Below, piece after piece: positions 4,409 through 50,801 of a DNA stretch of 56,842 nucleotides. The translations under genes were made by a program, and so were the position numbers. The DNA lies in NCBI GenBank assembly GCA_026418625.1, contig JAOABA010000027.1, forward strand, positions 1 to 56,842. The letters are read 5' to 3'. The number at the start of each line of letters is the position of its first letter. The first letter of the stretch is position 1. The stretch comes from Candidatus Kapaibacterium sp. (GTDB lineage Bacteria > Bacteroidota > Ignavibacteria > Kapaibacteriales > UBA2268). The notes below the pieces were generated by a model. It did not search any database. It was not told where the DNA came from and saw nothing but the letters and a program-made list of their open reading frames with translations.

Positions 4409-4885
4409 TCAAAAACAGCCAACTGCTGTCCAATGATCATTTATTTCTATAATTTCCTCACAATCGCAATTTGGATAACGTTGTCTATATGCACAATTGG
4501 CAAAATTCCAGCTACAATCATAATTACAAATTTCCAAACAATTTAAGTCATCAAAAGGTATTCCTACGCACCCTGAAACACCTTTATTCCCGCCAATATA
4601 AAAGCATTTTTCGATATTAGAGGGACACATATACCAACCACAATCCTTCACCTCCTTATTAATACCAAGTTCAGGATGTTCACACTCGCAGCATAATGCA
4701 CATCTTATACGACATCTGACATTTTTGATAATACAGTGATATTCATAATATGGTTCGTCACCCTTCTGAGCAAACTTTGTACAGCACGGCGGGACGCATG
4801 GATCTTCACCCTTTCGATATTGTTTGTCAACATGGGCGTAAGAAATATAACTGAAAATAAAAAGCATGAAGATTATCTTTTTCAT
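4409..4885 (-). CDS. Cys-rich small secreted protein (module copy 1)
   Basis: 158 residues from ATG 4885, chosen over an in-frame TTG at 4897 because GGAG sits directly before it. A short signal peptide (MKKIIFMLFIFSYISYA) is followed by a mature part with 20 cysteines, including CVPPCC near the N-terminus and VRCRIRCALCCECE in the middle. The latter resembles the KKCMICVCYC cluster of the protein at 2254-2835. No family was recognised. The high Cys density in a secreted protein suggests several disulfides. It lies between a structured leader and a T9SS-sorted gene 12 bp downstream. Whether it is a chaperone, an anchor partner or an independent effector cannot be read from the sequence. Confidence 0.7.
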   Translation of the reverse strand: MKKIIFMLFIFSYISYAHVDKQYRKGEDPCVPPCCTKFAQKGDEPYYEYHCIIKNVRCRIRCALCCECEHPELGINKEVKDCGWYMCPSNIEKCFYIGGNKGVSGCVGIPFDDLNCLEICNYDCSWNFANCAYRQRYPNCDCEEIIEINDHWTAVGCF

Positions 4886-5097
4886 TTTCTTCTCCAATTT
4901 TTAATTTAACAAATTAATTTTAATTTTTGTAAATTTTTATTAATTTGCCCATTGAATAGGGCAAAAGCCGGTGGGAAACTGCGAAAGCAGTCAGCTTCAA
5001 CCCTTGCCGGACCGATATTGCTTTTATCGGTTCGGCTTTTTTAATGCAATCATAGGCTAACCCTCCTTTCTGTTTTTTTTAACCGAAGACAAATAAC
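4886..5097 (-). promoter_or_regulatory. Conserved structured leader, copy 1
   Basis: This is the sister of the block at 2836-3047, with the same order of parts: GTTATTTGTC (5097-5088), AAAGGAGG (5069-5062), TTAGCCTATG, GCATTAAAAAAGCCGAA, a hairpin at 5036-5006 (stem ACCGATA/TATCGGT instead of ATTCGTAA/TTACGAAT), a second hairpin (ACTGC-TTTC-GCAGT), GGCTTTTGCCC, a TTTGCCC/GGGCAAA hairpin, then GGAGAAG and ATG. Stems differ by compensated changes while the flanks are identical. The heptamer repeat at 5110-5158 starts 13 bp upstream of the GTTATTTGTC box. Confidence 0.6.
5024..5053 (-). CDS. Putative 9-codon leader peptide, copy 1
   Basis: ATG at 5053 lies 8 bases after AAAGGAGG, a near-perfect ribosome-binding site in a place where no other start codon needs one. 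It reads MIALKKPNR and stops with TAA at 5026-5024, inside the main hairpin. Seven of nine residues equal those of the other copy, and the length is identical. Confidence 0.4.
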   Translation of the reverse strand: MIALKKPNR

Positions 5098-5256: not shown

Positions 5257-5530
5257 AGGATGATGTGAGTGACGAGAGCTTCACTTCAGAGAAGGTATGA
5301 GTCTCCCAACGATATGTCACTTCTGCGGAGGCAGGAGTCTCCGTGGCTTGACGAGATTCCTGTATGCACAGGAATGACAGTTTAGGACGATATTCTTACC
5401 TTTGAAGTTGTTAAAAAATAAGACAAATGGACTCTTCACTTCGTTCAGAGTGACAATGAAAATATTTTCAGATGTCCTACACCTGAGAGGTGTAGGACAT
5501 CATTTGTTGCACAGACAGGAATGTCTGTTC
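5257..5530. repeat. Cluster of palindromic intergenic repeats (geneless stretch)
   Basis: No gene is seen between 5159 and 5582. The stretch holds at least four unrelated hairpins or dispersed units: ATTCCTGT-ATGC-ACAGGAAT (5356-5375); a unit GGACTCTTCACTTCGTTCAG (5429-5448), of which a variant recurs at about 29067; a 14-bp perfect stem with 3-base loop (5471-5501); and ACAGACA-GGAA-TGTCTGT (5511-5528). It looks like a landing zone for small palindromic elements. No transposase is present. Confidence 0.65.
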
Positions 5531-5582
5531 CACCTGAAGGCACTATTAGAAATGATTTTTTTTCACTACTTGAAAGTAGCTG

Positions 5583-7160
5583 CTATTCAATTTTGACAAA
5601 GCGTCCCACCAAATCACCAAGACGGACAAAATAAAGCCCTGATGGCAAATTTGAAATATCAATCCTTTGTAGAGACACAGCATGCTGTGTCTCTACGGAT
5701 AAAACGCACTCTCCAAGTATGTTGTAGATATTTATTTTGTCAGTAGAGGCAGGTCTGAGACCTGTCTCTACATTATAAATTATTTCAATATAATCTAAAG
5801 CGGGATTTGGGTAAATTGTAACTAAAATATCGGAAATGATATAATCATCAACTGTTGATTCGATGAAATATTCATAGGCTCCAATATCATAAGATTTTCC
5901 CATTGGTCTTCGATTTCCTGATAAATCAAAGCGTGGAGCCTGATTTGAACTTCCTTTATCAATTGCAGGTGAATTTTGTCTCAAGCGGTAATCATCTGAT
6001 GAAGGGTCAGCAAACAATGGATCTGACTCAACAAATTGCTCTCCCCGTATTTCATCAGGATAACTCATAAAAGGATAAACCAAATTATAGTCAAAAGTTA
6101 ATCCTTTTGAACTTCTACCTTCATGGCTAATCTGGAATGATTGGTTAAAACTACAAATATTGTTTCTAATAATTATATTATCAGCATCGGGATTTCCAAT
6201 TGCAATACCACCACCCCAAGATTGACCATTATAACAAGCAGTATTATTAATTATGTATATATTCTTGATTGGTTTTACTTTTATATTAGTGTCATCACCA
6301 TTTGAAGAAACATTTATTCCAAGAAACTTGTTTTTGTAAGTCAAATTATTAAAAATCCATACATTTTCGAGAATGCCACCCATTTCAGAGGCTAAAACAA
6401 TACCTTCAGTGCAATTATACACAATGTTGTTATAAACTTGAATATTTCCAGTGTATTTATCCCAAGCATCCACATAAATACCAAGTCGTGCAAGATTAAA
6501 AACAGTATTATTGTGTATTATGCCATTTTGGGAACCATCTTTTGCATCAATTCCCTCACCCCCGATAGCTCCATTGATACCGTTATGAACTTTATTATAC
6601 CTTACAAGAAAATTCTCGCAATTGGCAATTGATATACATTCTTGAGGTCCTCCATTGCAAGCTAATTCTACTTCATTTGAATCAACGAGTATGCTTGTGC
6701 ACCCCCAGAAGCCAATGCCGGAAGAAAAAGTATTCAATGTTTTATTATTCTTTAACGTTATGTCAGATGAATTATCAACATAAAAGCCTTGATCGGAAGA
6801 ATTTTTCAGAAAAAAATTATAAAACTCAATCCAACTCAGTCCCTCGATATGAACTAAACCATTATATTTTTGAGTTATATTTTGCCCATCAATTATACTT
6901 TTATTATTGTCTCCATAGAATACAATCGGTTTTTCAATTGTCCCGGATTTTACCAATCTGACAATTTCATTATAAGTTCCTGCCAAGACAAATACAGTAT
7001 CTCCCGGAGCTACAAAGTTGGTTGATTTTTGTATAGTTCGGAAGGGGGATTGTTTTGTTCCGGGATTATTATCATTTCCTTGTGGAGAAACATAATAATT
7101 AGCTGAAAATATTGATCCAGCCGAGAGAATCACTAAAAAAATGTATAATAAAGATTTCAT
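5583..7160 (-). CDS. T9SS-sorted right-handed parallel beta-helix protein
   Basis: 525 residues with a signal peptide (residues 1-19). Residues 20-70 read NYYVSPQGNDNNPGTKQSPF followed by RTIQKS, the usual start of DUF1565/pectate-lyase-like beta-helix proteins. Residues ~75-400 carry coil repeats such as IYIINNTACYNG and IIIRNNICSFN. Then comes the common tail motif DPSSDDYRLRQNSPAIDKGS, the block LSGNRRPMGKSYDIGAYEY, and a type-A T9SS sorting domain (residues ~445-525). No catalytic residues could be assigned, so it may be a polysaccharide-binding or -cleaving surface protein. The sorting domain carries two in-frame palindromic repeats (5669-5696, 5743-5771) that encode the odd segments VETQHAVSLQR and VETGLRPASTD in places where family members have short loops. 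Confidence 0.8.
   Translation of the reverse strand: MKSLLYIFLVILSAGSIFSANYYVSPQGNDNNPGTKQSPFRTIQKSTNFVAPGDTVFVLAGTYNEIVRLVKSGTIEKPIVFYGDNNKSIIDGQNITQKYNGLVHIEGLSWIEFYNFFLKNSSDQGFYVDNSSDITLKNNKTLNTFSSGIGFWGCTSILVDSNEVELACNGGPQECISIANCENFLVRYNKVHNGINGAIGGEGIDAKDGSQNGIIHNNTVFNLARLGIYVDAWDKYTGNIQVYNNIVYNCTEGIVLASEMGGILENVWIFNNLTYKNKFLGINVSSNGDDTNIKVKPIKNIYIINNTACYNGQSWGGGIAIGNPDADNIIIRNNICSFNQSFQISHEGRSSKGLTFDYNLVYPFMSYPDEIRGEQFVESDPLFADPSSDDYRLRQNSPAIDKGSSNQAPRFDLSGNRRPMGKSYDIGAYEYFIESTVDDYIISDILVTIYPNPALDYIEIIYNVETGLRPASTDKINIYNILGECVLSVETQHAVSLQRIDISNLPSGLYFVRLGDLVGRFVKIE
5669..5696. repeat. 28-bp perfect palindrome inside a coding sequence
   Basis: Fully self-complementary 28 bp beginning GTAGAGACACAGCA. 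It lies in frame within the T9SS sorting domain of the beta-helix protein and is translated as part of VETQHAVSLQR. It shares the GTAGAGxCA outer arm with the element at 5743-5771. Confidence 0.85.
5743..5771. repeat. 29-bp near-perfect palindrome inside a coding sequence
   Basis: Arms GTAGAGGCAGGTCT and AGACCTGTCTCTAC around one central G, with a single G:T position. It is in frame in the same sorting domain, 46 bp from the first palindrome, and is translated as part of VETGLRPASTD. The same family of element (GTAGAGACA arms) is therefore present twice in one gene. Confidence 0.85.
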
Positions 7161-42300: not shown

Positions 42301-43787
42301 ATAGAAAAATATCACACAAGGTTTCTGATCCCGATTATTCAGATTTTCAGCCAGCTAAAATTGAATTTGATGCTTTTCAAGGTTACTTTATTTCATCGGA
42401 CGGGGAAAAAGTGCCTTTGAATGATCCAAGAGTGGATATACTTATTCCTTCAATGGGTGATCTTGCAGCTCCTATGTTTGCAGCCGGACTGCGAAGTCAG
42501 GGCTTTAATGCAATACCAATGCCCGAGGGGAATCCCGAAATTTTAAAATACGGTAGATCAGTATCTTCGGGTAAAGAATGTTTACCTTTGATTTTATGTG
42601 TTGGTTCTCTGCTTGATTATCTCGAAAATAAATGGGACAAGAAACAATTCGTTGCTTTTTTTATTGTTCAAGGTGCTGGAAACTGCCGTTTAGGTCAATA
42701 CCCCGTAATTATTCGCGATATAATCAAGCGAAAAAAAATAAGGAATGTTGCGACATTAACATTGATGAACGAAGATGGATTTGCCGGATTGGGACCGAAT
42801 TTCGCGACGAGAGGCATTCAAACATTATTTGTTAGTGATGTTCTTGATGATATCCGCTCAGCAATTATGGCTCACGCTGTAAATCCCGACGTAGGTTTGA
42901 AAATTTTCTACGAAGAATATGAAAAATTGAACGAAACTTTCGAAAAATCACCTGATGACATTTATAAAGCTTTAGAAAAATTTTCAAAAGTTATAAGGGA
43001 AAAAGTTCCAGCTAAAATACCTATTGAACACGCTAAATATATCGCTTTATGTGGTGAGATCTACGTAAGACGCGATCATTTTTCCCATAAATGGCTAAAT
43101 AGAAAATTTGCTGAGAAGGGTTTTGTCCTAAAAGATGCTTACATAACTGAGTGGATTTATTATGTTGATTATCTGCTCAAGCAAAAGCTTTTAGAGCCCG
43201 AAACCTCATTATCTAAAAAAATTGAAAGATGGATAAGGGTTTATTATATGAGACGCGCTGAACATAAAATTAAAAAGATTCTTGCTAAAACAGGTTATTA
43301 CAAATATTCAAGAACTGAAATAGAGCCTCTCTTGAATCATAGCAAACATATTATACCGATGGAATACAAAGGTGAACCGGGCTTAACTCTTGGTGTTGCA
43401 CTGCACGAAACTATCGAAAAATACTGTGGAGTCATTAATCTTGGTCCATTTGGATGTATGCCCACAAGATTTACTGAGGCTGTTTCCATACCTGAAATGA
43501 AAATTGAAAATAAGATTCAGGTCTCTCGCATTTATAAAAAAGATTATAAATTACCTTCAGTTTTCAATGGAAAAATGAATATACCTTTCTTAACTATTGA
43601 AACTGATGGAAATGTATTTCCACAAGTTATCGAAGCCCGGCTTGAAGCATTTACTCTTCAAGCAGAGCGAGTAGCAAAATTAATGCAAGCGGCTAAAATG
43701 AACGGTTGGTCAAAAGATCTACCACAAAGTCAGGTTAAAGACAATCAGTTTAAATTGATTGAAACAAAAGATATTCCAATTGAATAA
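39399..43787 (+). CDS. Acyl-CoA dehydratase activator-type protein, two BadF/HgdC ATPase domains plus DUF2229/HgdB-like part
   Basis: 1462 residues. Two activator ATPase domains are fused: domain 1 (1-~255) with CASGTGEFF (C125) and GRCSVFC (C163); domain 2 (~300-590) with LGLDVGSTTTK, IGGQDAKY, CSAGTGSF (C426) and DQCSAFISSDIK (C466). The cysteine pairs are spaced 38 and 40 apart, as in HgdC, where each subunit gives two ligands to one shared [4Fe-4S]. Residues ~660-900 look like DUF2229 (HTIYPLYYNFFTKLGFKVIL). The rest resembles the HgdB/dehydratase-like half with further cysteines. Proteins of this architecture are common in anaerobes but have no settled function; radical dehydration of a hydroxyacyl-CoA is one possibility. 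It stands alone, followed by a FabH-like gene. Confidence 0.82.
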   Translation: MKQVIGACLGASSISLVKIASNNGNISILEAINLPHNGDPKGVFHSKLLEFNQEYLPVVVTGRKFRKLVNFTNISEPEATELAFKHFNQNNDNFVAIASLGGETFMIYPLDESGKITDVITRNQCASGTGEFFLQQLKRMNLNIDEVMEVSKGANPYKVSGRCSVFCKSDCTHALNKGIPQAEVTSGLALMMAEKVEDLLKKVRNGKVLIVGGVTRNSSVMEFLRQKLDDIVIPEYATYFEALGAAIYGLNNKVEEFDNYHSIFKNGSSSFVFHPPLENFKDYVEFRSFQKGQAKDGDVCILGLDVGSTTTKAVIIRVSDNQILGSVYLYTHGNPIEAAKKCYSELLRQIPEKIKIIGLGTTGSGRQIAGLHALTEGVFNEIIAHATAAIYFDPDVDTIFEIGGQDAKYTYIVNKVPADYAMNEACSAGTGSFIEESAYESLGVKVNEIEPIAMRAKHPPNFSDQCSAFISSDIKTAQQENISKDDIIAGLVYSICLNYVNRVKGNRTVGKKILMQGGVCYNKAIPIAMAALTGKKIIVPPEPGLMGAFGVALEVKEKIELGLMEPKEFDLAELAERNVTYKKPFICVGGKEKCDLACPINLIEVQGKTYPFGGACNKYYNILSKKKVDVNKYDYVSKRQYLTFEKYAPAIELPDTAKTVGINQSFHTHTIYPLYYNFFTKLGFKVILSDEVNDKGLERELTSFCYPAQISLGLFYDLYEKQPDYYFVPEIFEMYVEDSEYQRLDFNCTCVFVSGEPFYLKQAFKDIIDTKKLISPFFNFANGFDKEEEKFIEVAKQIGIYDEVKIKEAFKYALKMQESYQKELFSMGEEFLEFLRNNPDEFAIVLVGRPYNSFAEHANKGIPKKFASRGVYVVPFDMFDYRKEVIDDNQYWEGGKKILKVAKIIKSNDQLFATYISNFSCGPDSMLLTTFRSIMGTKPSLTLELDGHTADAGINTRIDAALDIIKNYRKISHKVSDPDYSDFQPAKIEFDAFQGYFISSDGEKVPLNDPRVDILIPSMGDLAAPMFAAGLRSQGFNAIPMPEGNPEILKYGRSVSSGKECLPLILCVGSLLDYLENKWDKKQFVAFFIVQGAGNCRLGQYPVIIRDIIKRKKIRNVATLTLMNEDGFAGLGPNFATRGIQTLFVSDVLDDIRSAIMAHAVNPDVGLKIFYEEYEKLNETFEKSPDDIYKALEKFSKVIREKVPAKIPIEHAKYIALCGEIYVRRDHFSHKWLNRKFAEKGFVLKDAYITEWIYYVDYLLKQKLLEPETSLSKKIERWIRVYYMRRAEHKIKKILAKTGYYKYSRTEIEPLLNHSKHIIPMEYKGEPGLTLGVALHETIEKYCGVINLGPFGCMPTRFTEAVSIPEMKIENKIQVSRIYKKDYKLPSVFNGKMNIPFLTIETDGNVFPQVIEARLEAFTLQAERVAKLMQAAKMNGWSKDLPQSQVKDNQFKLIETKDIPIE

Positions 43788-43899
43788 CTTAATTTTTTCT
43801 TAACAAGTAACTTTTTTCTGTTCAAAGAAAAGAAATTATGAAACGTTTATAAAATATTAAAATTAACATTATCATTTAAAGTAGAAAGAAAGGATCTGA

Positions 43900-44994
43900 A
43901 TGTCCCAAAATATTTGGAGTGTTATAACAGCAACAGGCAGTTACATTCCTACAAAGATTGTCAAAAATGAAGATTTTTTAAATCACACTTTTTTTGATTC
44001 CGACGGTAAATTATTTGATAAAGCAAATAGCTATATAATTGAAAAATTTGAAGAAATAACAGGAATTAAGGAACGAAGATACGTTACAGATGATTTAGTT
44101 ACATCTGATATTGCTTATTATGCAGCTCTTGATTGTTTGGAATCATCAGATATAGATAAGGAAAGTCTTGATTATATTATAGTTGCTCATAATTTTGGAG
44201 ATGTTAGAGCAGATATTAGGCAATCCGATTTTGTCCCAACTCTTGCTTCGAGAGTAAAAAATAAACTTGAAATATCAAATCCTTATACAATTGCTTATGA
44301 TCTTCCATTTGGCTGTCCGGGTTGGCTTCAGGGCGTTATTCAAGGCGATTTTTACATTAAATCAGGAATGGCAAAAAAAGTAATGGTGATTGGTGCTGAA
44401 ACTCTCTCGAGGGTCTCTGATCCTCACGATAGGGATAGTATGATTTATTCCGATGGAGCAGGAGCCGTAATATTGGAAGCAAAAGAAAGCGAAGAACCTA
44501 TAGGTATTTTATCTCACTCATCACAATCCGCCACAAAAAATCACGCTTATCTACTATTGATGGGACCTTCTTATAACCCCGCTTTAAAAGGGAATCAACT
44601 TTACCTTAAAATGAGTGGGCATAATCTCTATAAATATGCTCTTCAAAATGTGCCAGAATTAGTAAAAGAGTGTATTGATAAAGCAAATGTTAGTTTAGAG
44701 CAAATAAAAAAGGTATTTATACATCAGGCTAACAACAAGATGGACGAGGAGATCTTGAAACGCTTCCATAAACTTTTTGGAATACAGAGTATGACCGCGA
44801 GAGAAATTTTTGATATTATGCCTATGACAATCTCCTGGCTTGGAAACAGTTCTGTTGCAACTCTTCCAACTCTTTTAGACCTTATGGTAAAAGGCAAATT
44901 ATCTGAACAGGAAGTCAGAAGCAAAGATGTAGTTGTTTTTGCTTCTGTTGGCGCTGGTATGAATATTAATTCTTTTACATATAAATTCGAATAA
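43900..44994 (+). CDS. 3-oxoacyl-ACP synthase III family protein (FabH-like)
   Basis: 364 residues; ATG 43900 has AAAGGA upstream. The thiolase-fold catalytic triad is complete: Cys139 in PFGCPGW, His275 in IHQANNKM and Asn316 in WLGNSSVATLPTLLD. It is longer than classical FabH (~317 residues), through an extra N-terminal stretch, so it may be a relative acting in special lipid or polyketide initiation. Its stop is 2 bp before purM. Confidence 0.85.
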   Translation: MSQNIWSVITATGSYIPTKIVKNEDFLNHTFFDSDGKLFDKANSYIIEKFEEITGIKERRYVTDDLVTSDIAYYAALDCLESSDIDKESLDYIIVAHNFGDVRADIRQSDFVPTLASRVKNKLEISNPYTIAYDLPFGCPGWLQGVIQGDFYIKSGMAKKVMVIGAETLSRVSDPHDRDSMIYSDGAGAVILEAKESEEPIGILSHSSQSATKNHAYLLLMGPSYNPALKGNQLYLKMSGHNLYKYALQNVPELVKECIDKANVSLEQIKKVFIHQANNKMDEEILKRFHKLFGIQSMTAREIFDIMPMTISWLGNSSVATLPTLLDLMVKGKLSEQEVRSKDVVVFASVGAGMNINSFTYKFE

Positions 44995-50772: not shown

Positions 50773-50801
50773 CCACGAGCTTAAGCTCGTGGTTTTTTTT
50801 T
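50773..50801 (+). terminator. Strong intrinsic terminator after ftsZ
   Basis: A perfect 8-bp GC-rich stem CCACGAGC/GCTCGTGG with TTAA loop, followed by nine T. It ends the ftsQAZ transcript 28 bp after the stop. Confidence 0.95.

Follow-up and report, generated by a model that had tools for sequence, protein, structure and literature searches.

Palindromes of probable REP type recurrently occupy two loops of a T9SS sorting domain in Candidatus Kapaibacterium and its relatives

Two loops of the T9SS sorting domain are recurrent sites for many unrelated palindromes in Candidatus Kapaibacterium sp. and its relatives. We suggest that these palindromes are most plausibly REP-type elements, the non-autonomous hairpins that RAYT transposases process, lodged in two permissive loops of the domain, and the sorting tag would seem to offer mobile DNA a place where it does no harm. 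REPs lying in frame within genes have already been published; their recurrent occupation of T9SS sorting-domain loops looks new, in so far as no report of REPs in T9SS sorting domains appeared among the papers listed by our literature searches. The in-frame REPs reported so far are scattered cases, whereas here dozens are found at two fixed sites of one domain type, in one bacterial family, with orthologue pairs that differ. The system makes it possible to study the entry of a mobile hairpin into coding DNA, by insertion or by replacement, its wear into ordinary protein sequence and what a protein loop tolerates.

Results and discussion

Two palindromes in one sorting domain

The window, by which we mean the whole 56,842-nucleotide stretch of DNA that was analysed, carries a beta-helix gene whose C terminus matches PF18962 with 49.2 bits (E 6.8e-13, cut-off 27) and TIGR04183 with 42.5 bits (cut-off 23), which places it among T9SS type A sorting domains. 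A sequence-only reading of the window had described two palindromes in this domain, and they are real: both are in frame within the minus-strand gene, 46 bp apart, and the arms of the 29-bp one stand around a single central base (Table 1). The pattern GTAGAGN{6,36}CTCTAC matches twice in the window against 0.01 matches expected, none of 100 shuffles reaches two, and a chance origin is ruled out by these shuffles together with codon-shuffled nulls. As to the peptides encoded, VETQHAVSLQ and VETGLRPAST are confirmed, and the trailing R and D that the same reading had added to them belong to the flank. Judging from alignment, both palindromes would lie in loops of the domain.

Table 1. Features of the beta-helix gene and of the DNA that follows it, in window positions.
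Feature	Position	Strand	Remarks
Secreted right-handed beta-helix protein, 525 aa, C-terminal T9SS sorting domain	5583..7160	-	ORF and PF18962
T9SS type A sorting domain (PF18962 / TIGR04183), holds both palindromes	5616..5816	-	profile matches
Perfect 28-bp palindrome GTAGAGACACAGCATGCTGTGTCTCTAC, reads VETQHAVSLQ, putative loop 2 (GECVLS to RIDIS)	5669..5696	-	arms 14/14
29-bp palindrome GTAGAGGCAGGTCTGAGACCTGTCTCTAC, one mismatch, reads VETGLRPAST, putative loop 1 (IEIIYN to INIYN)	5743..5771	-	arms 13/14
Short palindrome CTACTTGAAAGTAG, just past the stop codon of the beta-helix gene	5566..5579	.	similar ones follow the stop in L003, L004 and L009 (sorting domains or fragments)
Intergenic palindrome GATGTCCTACACCT-gag-AGGTGTAGGACATC	5471..5501	.	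by eye, resembles a loop-2 palindrome of G025 and a palindrome near a transposase gene of G005
Intergenic inverted repeat around ACAGACA-ggaa-TGTCTGT	5507..5531	.	by eye, like a loop-2 palindrome of same-genus G001
ATTCCTGTATGCACAGGAAT, one of 57 copies of a different palindrome family (ATTCCTG) in the same genome	5356..5375	.

A dispersed palindrome family

The window palindromes share the arms GTAGAGACA...TGTCTCTAC and belong to a family whose members usually measure 26-30 bp. In the genome from which the window comes (3.30 Mb in 58 contigs), GTAGAGN{6,36}CTCTAC matches at 13 places, 11 of them true palindromes and two (L007 and L011) not, and the reversed control pattern matches at four. 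When both 9-bp arms are demanded, matches are found in 11 of 60 genomes (the window's own and 10 of 59 relatives; none for the reversed control), and at the scale of the phylum the family is present in 22 of 247 (its own and 21 of 246 others; the reversed control in one). The sequence-only reading had proposed a mobile repeat family whose palindrome should recur elsewhere in the genome; further copies are indeed present there, and the family is dispersed.

Comparison of coding with intergenic sites and of phase, as that reading had proposed, gives the following picture. Five of the 11 own copies lie in four intact sorting-domain genes, two of these copies in the window gene; five more are in broken or partial sorting domains, and one is elsewhere. 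The highest copy number among the 60 genomes is 19. In the relative G035, six of 19 copies are read in frame, in one and the same phase, within proteins with identified domains: a GH3 enzyme, a penicillin acylase, a GAF/GGDEF protein (twice), a DnaJ-like protein and one sorting domain. No gene is assigned to the remaining 13 copies, two of which fall in ORFs of 151 and 272 residues. The GH3 segment that contains the palindrome is missing in all seven homologues, three of them congeners, in an alignment that is loose around the junction, where the congeners come out 9-10 residues shorter, and that gives no exact target site. PDB matches of the GH3 and penicillin-acylase proteins left the insertion status of the segment undecided, and homologues decided it for GH3 only. 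That the window palindromes form a mobile-type repeat family is partly supported, and the idea of mobility holds with the corrections given below; transposition itself we infer. Elsewhere, in G015, window-family palindromes are repeated in tandem about every 118 bp (L215 and L222 on contig C67, and on contig C155).

Many unrelated palindromes in the same two loops

By reading, the same two loops of other sorting domains in this genome carry other palindromes, among them ATTCATCCGATAACTCtGAGTTATCGGATGAAT (IHPITLSYRMN), TGTCATTCCTGCgaatGCAGGAATCTGACA (SFLRMQES) and AACCCTACGGTTAACCATAGGGTT (NPTVNHRV). Four of five named Ignavibacteria/Kapabacteria records have yet other palindromes in loop 1 or 2, and only weak AT-rich ones are present in the remaining record (L207) and in one of the Flavobacteriales (L199). 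Palindromes were sought in these six of 14 named loci, L195-L198 being taken as the same records as G029, G025, G001 and G016.

At least 150 T9SS sorting domains of the 3.3-Mb genome lie over the TIGR04183 cut-off, and the own-genome counts refer to the 150 so scored out of 242 candidates, 92 being outside. A profile, A1, built from 15 own domains, most of them palindrome-bearing, so that its searches favour such domains, has matches in 39 of 59 relatives. Palindromes with arms of at least 9 are present in 27 of 40 relative domains (11 relatives), which were hand-picked from high-ranking listed matches of 11 genomes with some skipped and are not a random draw; the domains read from G006 and G016, one each, have no palindrome with arms of at least 9. 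At arms of at least 11 and GC of at least 0.35, palindromes are found in 7 of 33 own A1-like domains (codon-shuffled mean 0.40, maximum 2), in 0 of the 117 other own domains (mean 0.35, maximum 2) and in 25 of the 40 relative domains (mean 1.04, maximum 4), the own count being low because the GC filter removes the AT-rich ATTCATCC family. With arms of at least 10 and no GC filter, 15 of 33 own A1-like domains have one against a null mean of 3.93, and 20 of the 117 others have weak AT-rich ones against 13.4 (maximum 19).

Among the 42 palindromes that were placed in the 33 own A1-like and 40 relative domains, 28 lie before KIYN (loop 1), 14 between GECV and IDIS (loop 2) and none after. One family using the fold, as the sequence-only reading had it, is not what is found, and a single repeat family in the loops is ruled out by the many unrelated palindromes that use the same two. 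L305 and L306 look like one gene with two palindromes, nine bases between the loci being unread.

Acquisition by exchange of the sorting domain

The same-genus orthologue of the window gene, in G001, is 85% identical over the beta-helix and ends in a palindrome-free sorting domain of a different type, and the G021 orthologue (51%) likewise has another type without a palindrome. Against 11 other sorting-domain genes, DNA identity upstream of PNP is at a background of 28-60%; from PNP onward the four closest (C45, C33:162169, C23 and C8) reach 84-89% and the others 51-79%. With C33:162169, C47:219133 and C10:148146, identity stays at 72-86% over 200 bp past the stop, and there is no such continuation with C45 and others. 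C23, C47:219133, C8 and C53 have another loop-2 palindrome, and with these four the identity is 21-25% over loop 2 and 81-89% on either side. By this comparison the domain moved as a unit, with the loop palindromes as exchangeable islands inside it.

These comparisons strongly indicate that the window gene got its palindromes along with a whole sorting domain, after the split from its same-genus orthologue. Two separate insertions, which the earlier reading implied for this gene, are rejected as its likeliest history by the palindrome-free domain of the orthologue and by the abrupt similarity from PNP. The comparison also shows T9SS tags travelling between unrelated genes as units. Outside intact genes, pieces of broken or partial sorting domains are scattered over the same genome (for example L003, L004, L006, L008, L009, L169 and L175), often beside several palindromes, in the manner of a dispersed repeat.

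Loop length

Palindromes lengthen the loops little or not at all, and the proposal of insertion into them is not borne out as it stood. For loop 1 the median interval is 25 residues in palindrome-bearing domains (own A1-like, n=8; relatives, n=25), and palindrome-free ones measure 25 in own A1-like, 23 in relative and 21 in other own domains; for loop 2 the medians are 32 with a palindrome and 33, 35 and 35 without, measured in 29 of 33, 89 of 117 and 38 of 40 domains after those without detected anchor motifs were dropped. Orthologous esterases of G035 and G060, 79% identical, both have GTAGGGGTTCAAAAT(T/C)TTGAACCCCTAC as loop 1, and at loop 2 a window-family palindrome in G035 faces 30 non-palindromic nucleotides of equal length in G060, a change whose direction we infer. 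The loops of the A1-like subfamily are somewhat longer than those of two solved sorting domains. Simple insertion may partly account for loop 1, but not for loop 2.

Wear and hairpin symmetry

Twenty sorting-domain stretches read like the window family, and the pairing between their halves runs from 1.00 to 0.57, with seven at 0.57-0.79; examples are VETQHAESLQ in G025 (0.71) and IETLNAASLQ in same-genus G001 (0.64). The earlier reading had held that the same residues without palindromic DNA would speak against it, and such stretches do exist in part. However, because their DNA is still like the palindrome, we read the low-pairing stretches as worn copies, in which symmetry is not needed for the protein. 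On this reading the window family sat in a sorting domain of the genus already before its two species parted, or it entered both.

In intact copies, paired changes of the arms keep the symmetry. Across 23 distinct 28-bp copies, hand-picked among the matches listed, the 9-bp outer arms are invariant by the pattern, and only three inner pairs are informative; in these, 29 cells are changed on both sides against a shuffled mean of 7.8, none of 500 shuffles reaches 29, and slid versions give 8 at most. Two other measures stay at the level of the shuffles, namely pairs changed on both sides (3 against 2.9) and further pair types (8 against 7.7). Seven copies of the window family have an identity of 0.95 in the palindrome and 0.74-0.83 in the flanks, and 14 copies of a second family 0.99 and 0.65-0.80, a comparison biased by the copies having been found by their palindrome.

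Relation to REPs and RAYT transposases

The REPs of TnpA_REP subclass 2.4 (RAYT group 4), which is reported from Cyanobacteria, Bacteroidetes and other phyla, are described as double-foot hairpins, GT[AG]G...C[TC]AC, found also in frame inside their own transposase genes (PMC6006769). The window family has this REP form (20-40 bp, with GT[AG]G as one foot and C[TC]AC as the opposite one). GTAG begins only some of the loop palindromes: the ATTCATCC, ATTCCTG and AACCCTACGG types of the same loops begin otherwise and lack the double-foot form. REP copy number is given as usually above 100 per genome (PMC2817692), and the window family, with its 11 own copies and at most 19 in 60 genomes, stays far from this; because of this low number we call it REP-type and not a typical REP. 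The case described here shares with subclass 2.4 the GT[AG]G / C[TC]AC feet of the hairpin and the presence of REPs in frame inside a transposase gene (PMC6006769), and differs in the place of the palindromes in sorting-domain loops of many secreted proteins, in the low copy number and in the RAYT fragment that, in place of an intact subclass 2.4 gene, was found beside the window family.

A RAYT-like gene of the same genome (L167, contig C14, about 43,600-44,250, a frame of 195 aa) has as its best NCBIfam match NF047646, the REP-associated tyrosine transposase, at 56.3 bits, below the cut-off of 80, and reaches 19.2 bits with PF01797 (cut-off 23); all six RAYT-like proteins tested are below the NF047646 cut-off. 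Its Y motif, YIHQNP, fits the published subclass 2.6, not 2.4. Palindromes of the ATCCGATGACT kind stand just upstream of this gene, inside it in frame (SNSSDDSKSSDEYQ) and, with one mismatch, just downstream, and they differ from the loop-2 palindrome that reads IHPITLSYRMN by one arm base pair and the centre. About 1 kb away is a second Y1-transposase stretch, with an internal stop. In G001, two shorter window-family copies are at the beginning of the reading frame of a RAYT fragment and the only full copy is about 60 bp further; an intact RAYT beside a GTAGAGACA palindrome was not found.

Other pairings, made by eye, link palindromes near transposases to those of loops. In G033 a transposase is flanked by ACTCCACCT palindromes like one in loop 1 of its congener G019, and in G005 AGATGTCCAACACCT... 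is about 345 bp from a transposase match and resembles one in loop 2 of G025; further pairs are GTAGGGAAC... (G033; loop 2 in G014) and AGGGGCAGGTT... (G035; loop 1 in G011). Of the 29 Y1-transposase loci compared in relatives, 12 have a palindrome no farther than 500 bp away and 17 have none, with densities of 17 in 37.0 kb (0.46/kb) near the transposase against 5 in 52.0 kb (0.10/kb) farther away; the 29 loci come from 34 matches, with the own match treated apart and four without a locus, and include overlaps such as L333/L338 and L336/L340.

Several known systems are similar. The intragenic GTAG/CGTC REPs of Di Nocera et al. (2013) are likewise read as protein, in some genes twice, and are described from scattered host genes, many of DNA synthesis or repair, whereas ours concern one domain type, two fixed sites and many families (PMC3733652). 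Rickettsia palindromic elements are also palindromic repeats in frame in probably functional proteins; by description only, they are set apart by the greater length given for RPE-1 and by the RAYT-like genes linked to palindromes here (PMC3733652). The coding palindromes of Nematomorpha mitochondria are again inverted repeats in coding sequence, but in animal mitochondrial genes, with repeats of up to 284 bp, and as described are not a dispersed family tied to one domain (PMC6649704).

A model for the loop palindromes and its alternatives

In our preferred model, different REP families would have entered or replaced the loops in many secreted-protein genes of this bacterial family, with frame and rough loop length kept; the occupation of the loops is seen directly, and transposition, presumably driven by RAYTs, would account for it. 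The loop-bearing sorting domain, sometimes with its 3' flank, would then be copied between unrelated genes, and the window beta-helix gene probably obtained its palindromes in this way. Once there, the palindromes would persist and then wear, presumably as neutral passengers, the domain being an address tag whose loops would lie outside the two motifs found necessary in published mutants. For secretion in P. gingivalis, the C terminus and the loop between strands 3 and 4 are reported to be important; other loops vary, and tags are exchangeable between cargoes (PMC11285876). Mapped by consensus, the palindromic loops would flank the conserved glycine turn and leave the C terminus intact. The observed covariation of the arms is as expected of an element that may be recognised as folded single-stranded DNA.

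Ten of the 11 window-family copies of this genome are in sorting domains or their fragments, as are 14 of 16 copies of the ATCCGATAAC family, so domain copying alone could explain the local spread. It could be, then, that one ancestral sorting domain was entered long ago and has spread since by duplication or gene conversion, with no present REP activity, and both the swap of the window gene's domain as a unit and the worn copies in sorting domains of G025 and G001, which have been there for some time, fit such a history. We nevertheless think it unlikely to be the whole explanation, since the in-frame copies of G035 occur in four kinds of gene besides those with a sorting domain, most copies there are outside identified genes and only one of 19 exact copies is in a sorting domain, and since the two loops are common to many unrelated palindromes. 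That copies are more alike in the palindrome than in the flanks points the same way, weakly, as they were found by their palindrome.

Less probable still is that the hairpins are kept for a function in mRNA or DNA near gene 3' ends, for instance in stabilising mRNA or as a recombination hot spot at which tags are exchanged, their tolerance by the protein being incidental. The palindromes are indeed no more than about 200 bp from the stop codon, the hairpin is preserved by paired changes and other palindromes follow the stop, but selfish hairpins recognised by RAYTs predict the same covariation, none of the 117 other own sorting domains has such a palindrome, 26 of 33 A1-like domains are without one at the same threshold, and seven of the 20 sorting-domain copies of the window family have lost much of their symmetry with the frame still open. 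Symmetry might also simply follow from the encoded peptide or the base composition, and weak AT-rich palindromes are frequent at the looser threshold, as the nulls of 3.93 and 13.4 against 15 and 20 attest. At the stricter one, however, codon-shuffled versions of these proteins yield 0.40 where 7 are observed and 1.04 where 25 are, which rejects a peptide or codon effect, and palindromes are also present outside identified genes; we regard this origin as scarcely credible.

Returning to REP-type hairpins in permissive loops, we raise tentatively, as a possibility that we hold to be somewhat short of an even chance, that the loops act as standing docking bays. Many REP families would converge on them and swap at nearly constant length, by copy-and-replace and not by simple insertion; secreted proteins would gain new peptide loops from the hairpins, and the tag would spread from gene to gene together with its REPs.

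Other repeats and frames in the window

On the 3' side of the beta-helix gene, between 5200 and 5560, several differing palindromes and repeats stand in a row, one of them of the ATTCCTG family; a variant of that 57-copy ATTCCTGTATGCACAGGAAT family reads SFLRMQES in loop 1 of another sorting domain. The palindrome just past the stop codon was dropped as a terminator, A's and not U's coming after it on the gene's strand. Farther along the window, at 50773-50792, is the palindrome CCACGAGCTTAAGCTCGTGG, like those on either side of a transposase match in G005 (L330). Two neighbouring small cysteine-rich ORFs on the minus strand, at 2254-2847 and 4409-4897, have the common start MEKKMKK.
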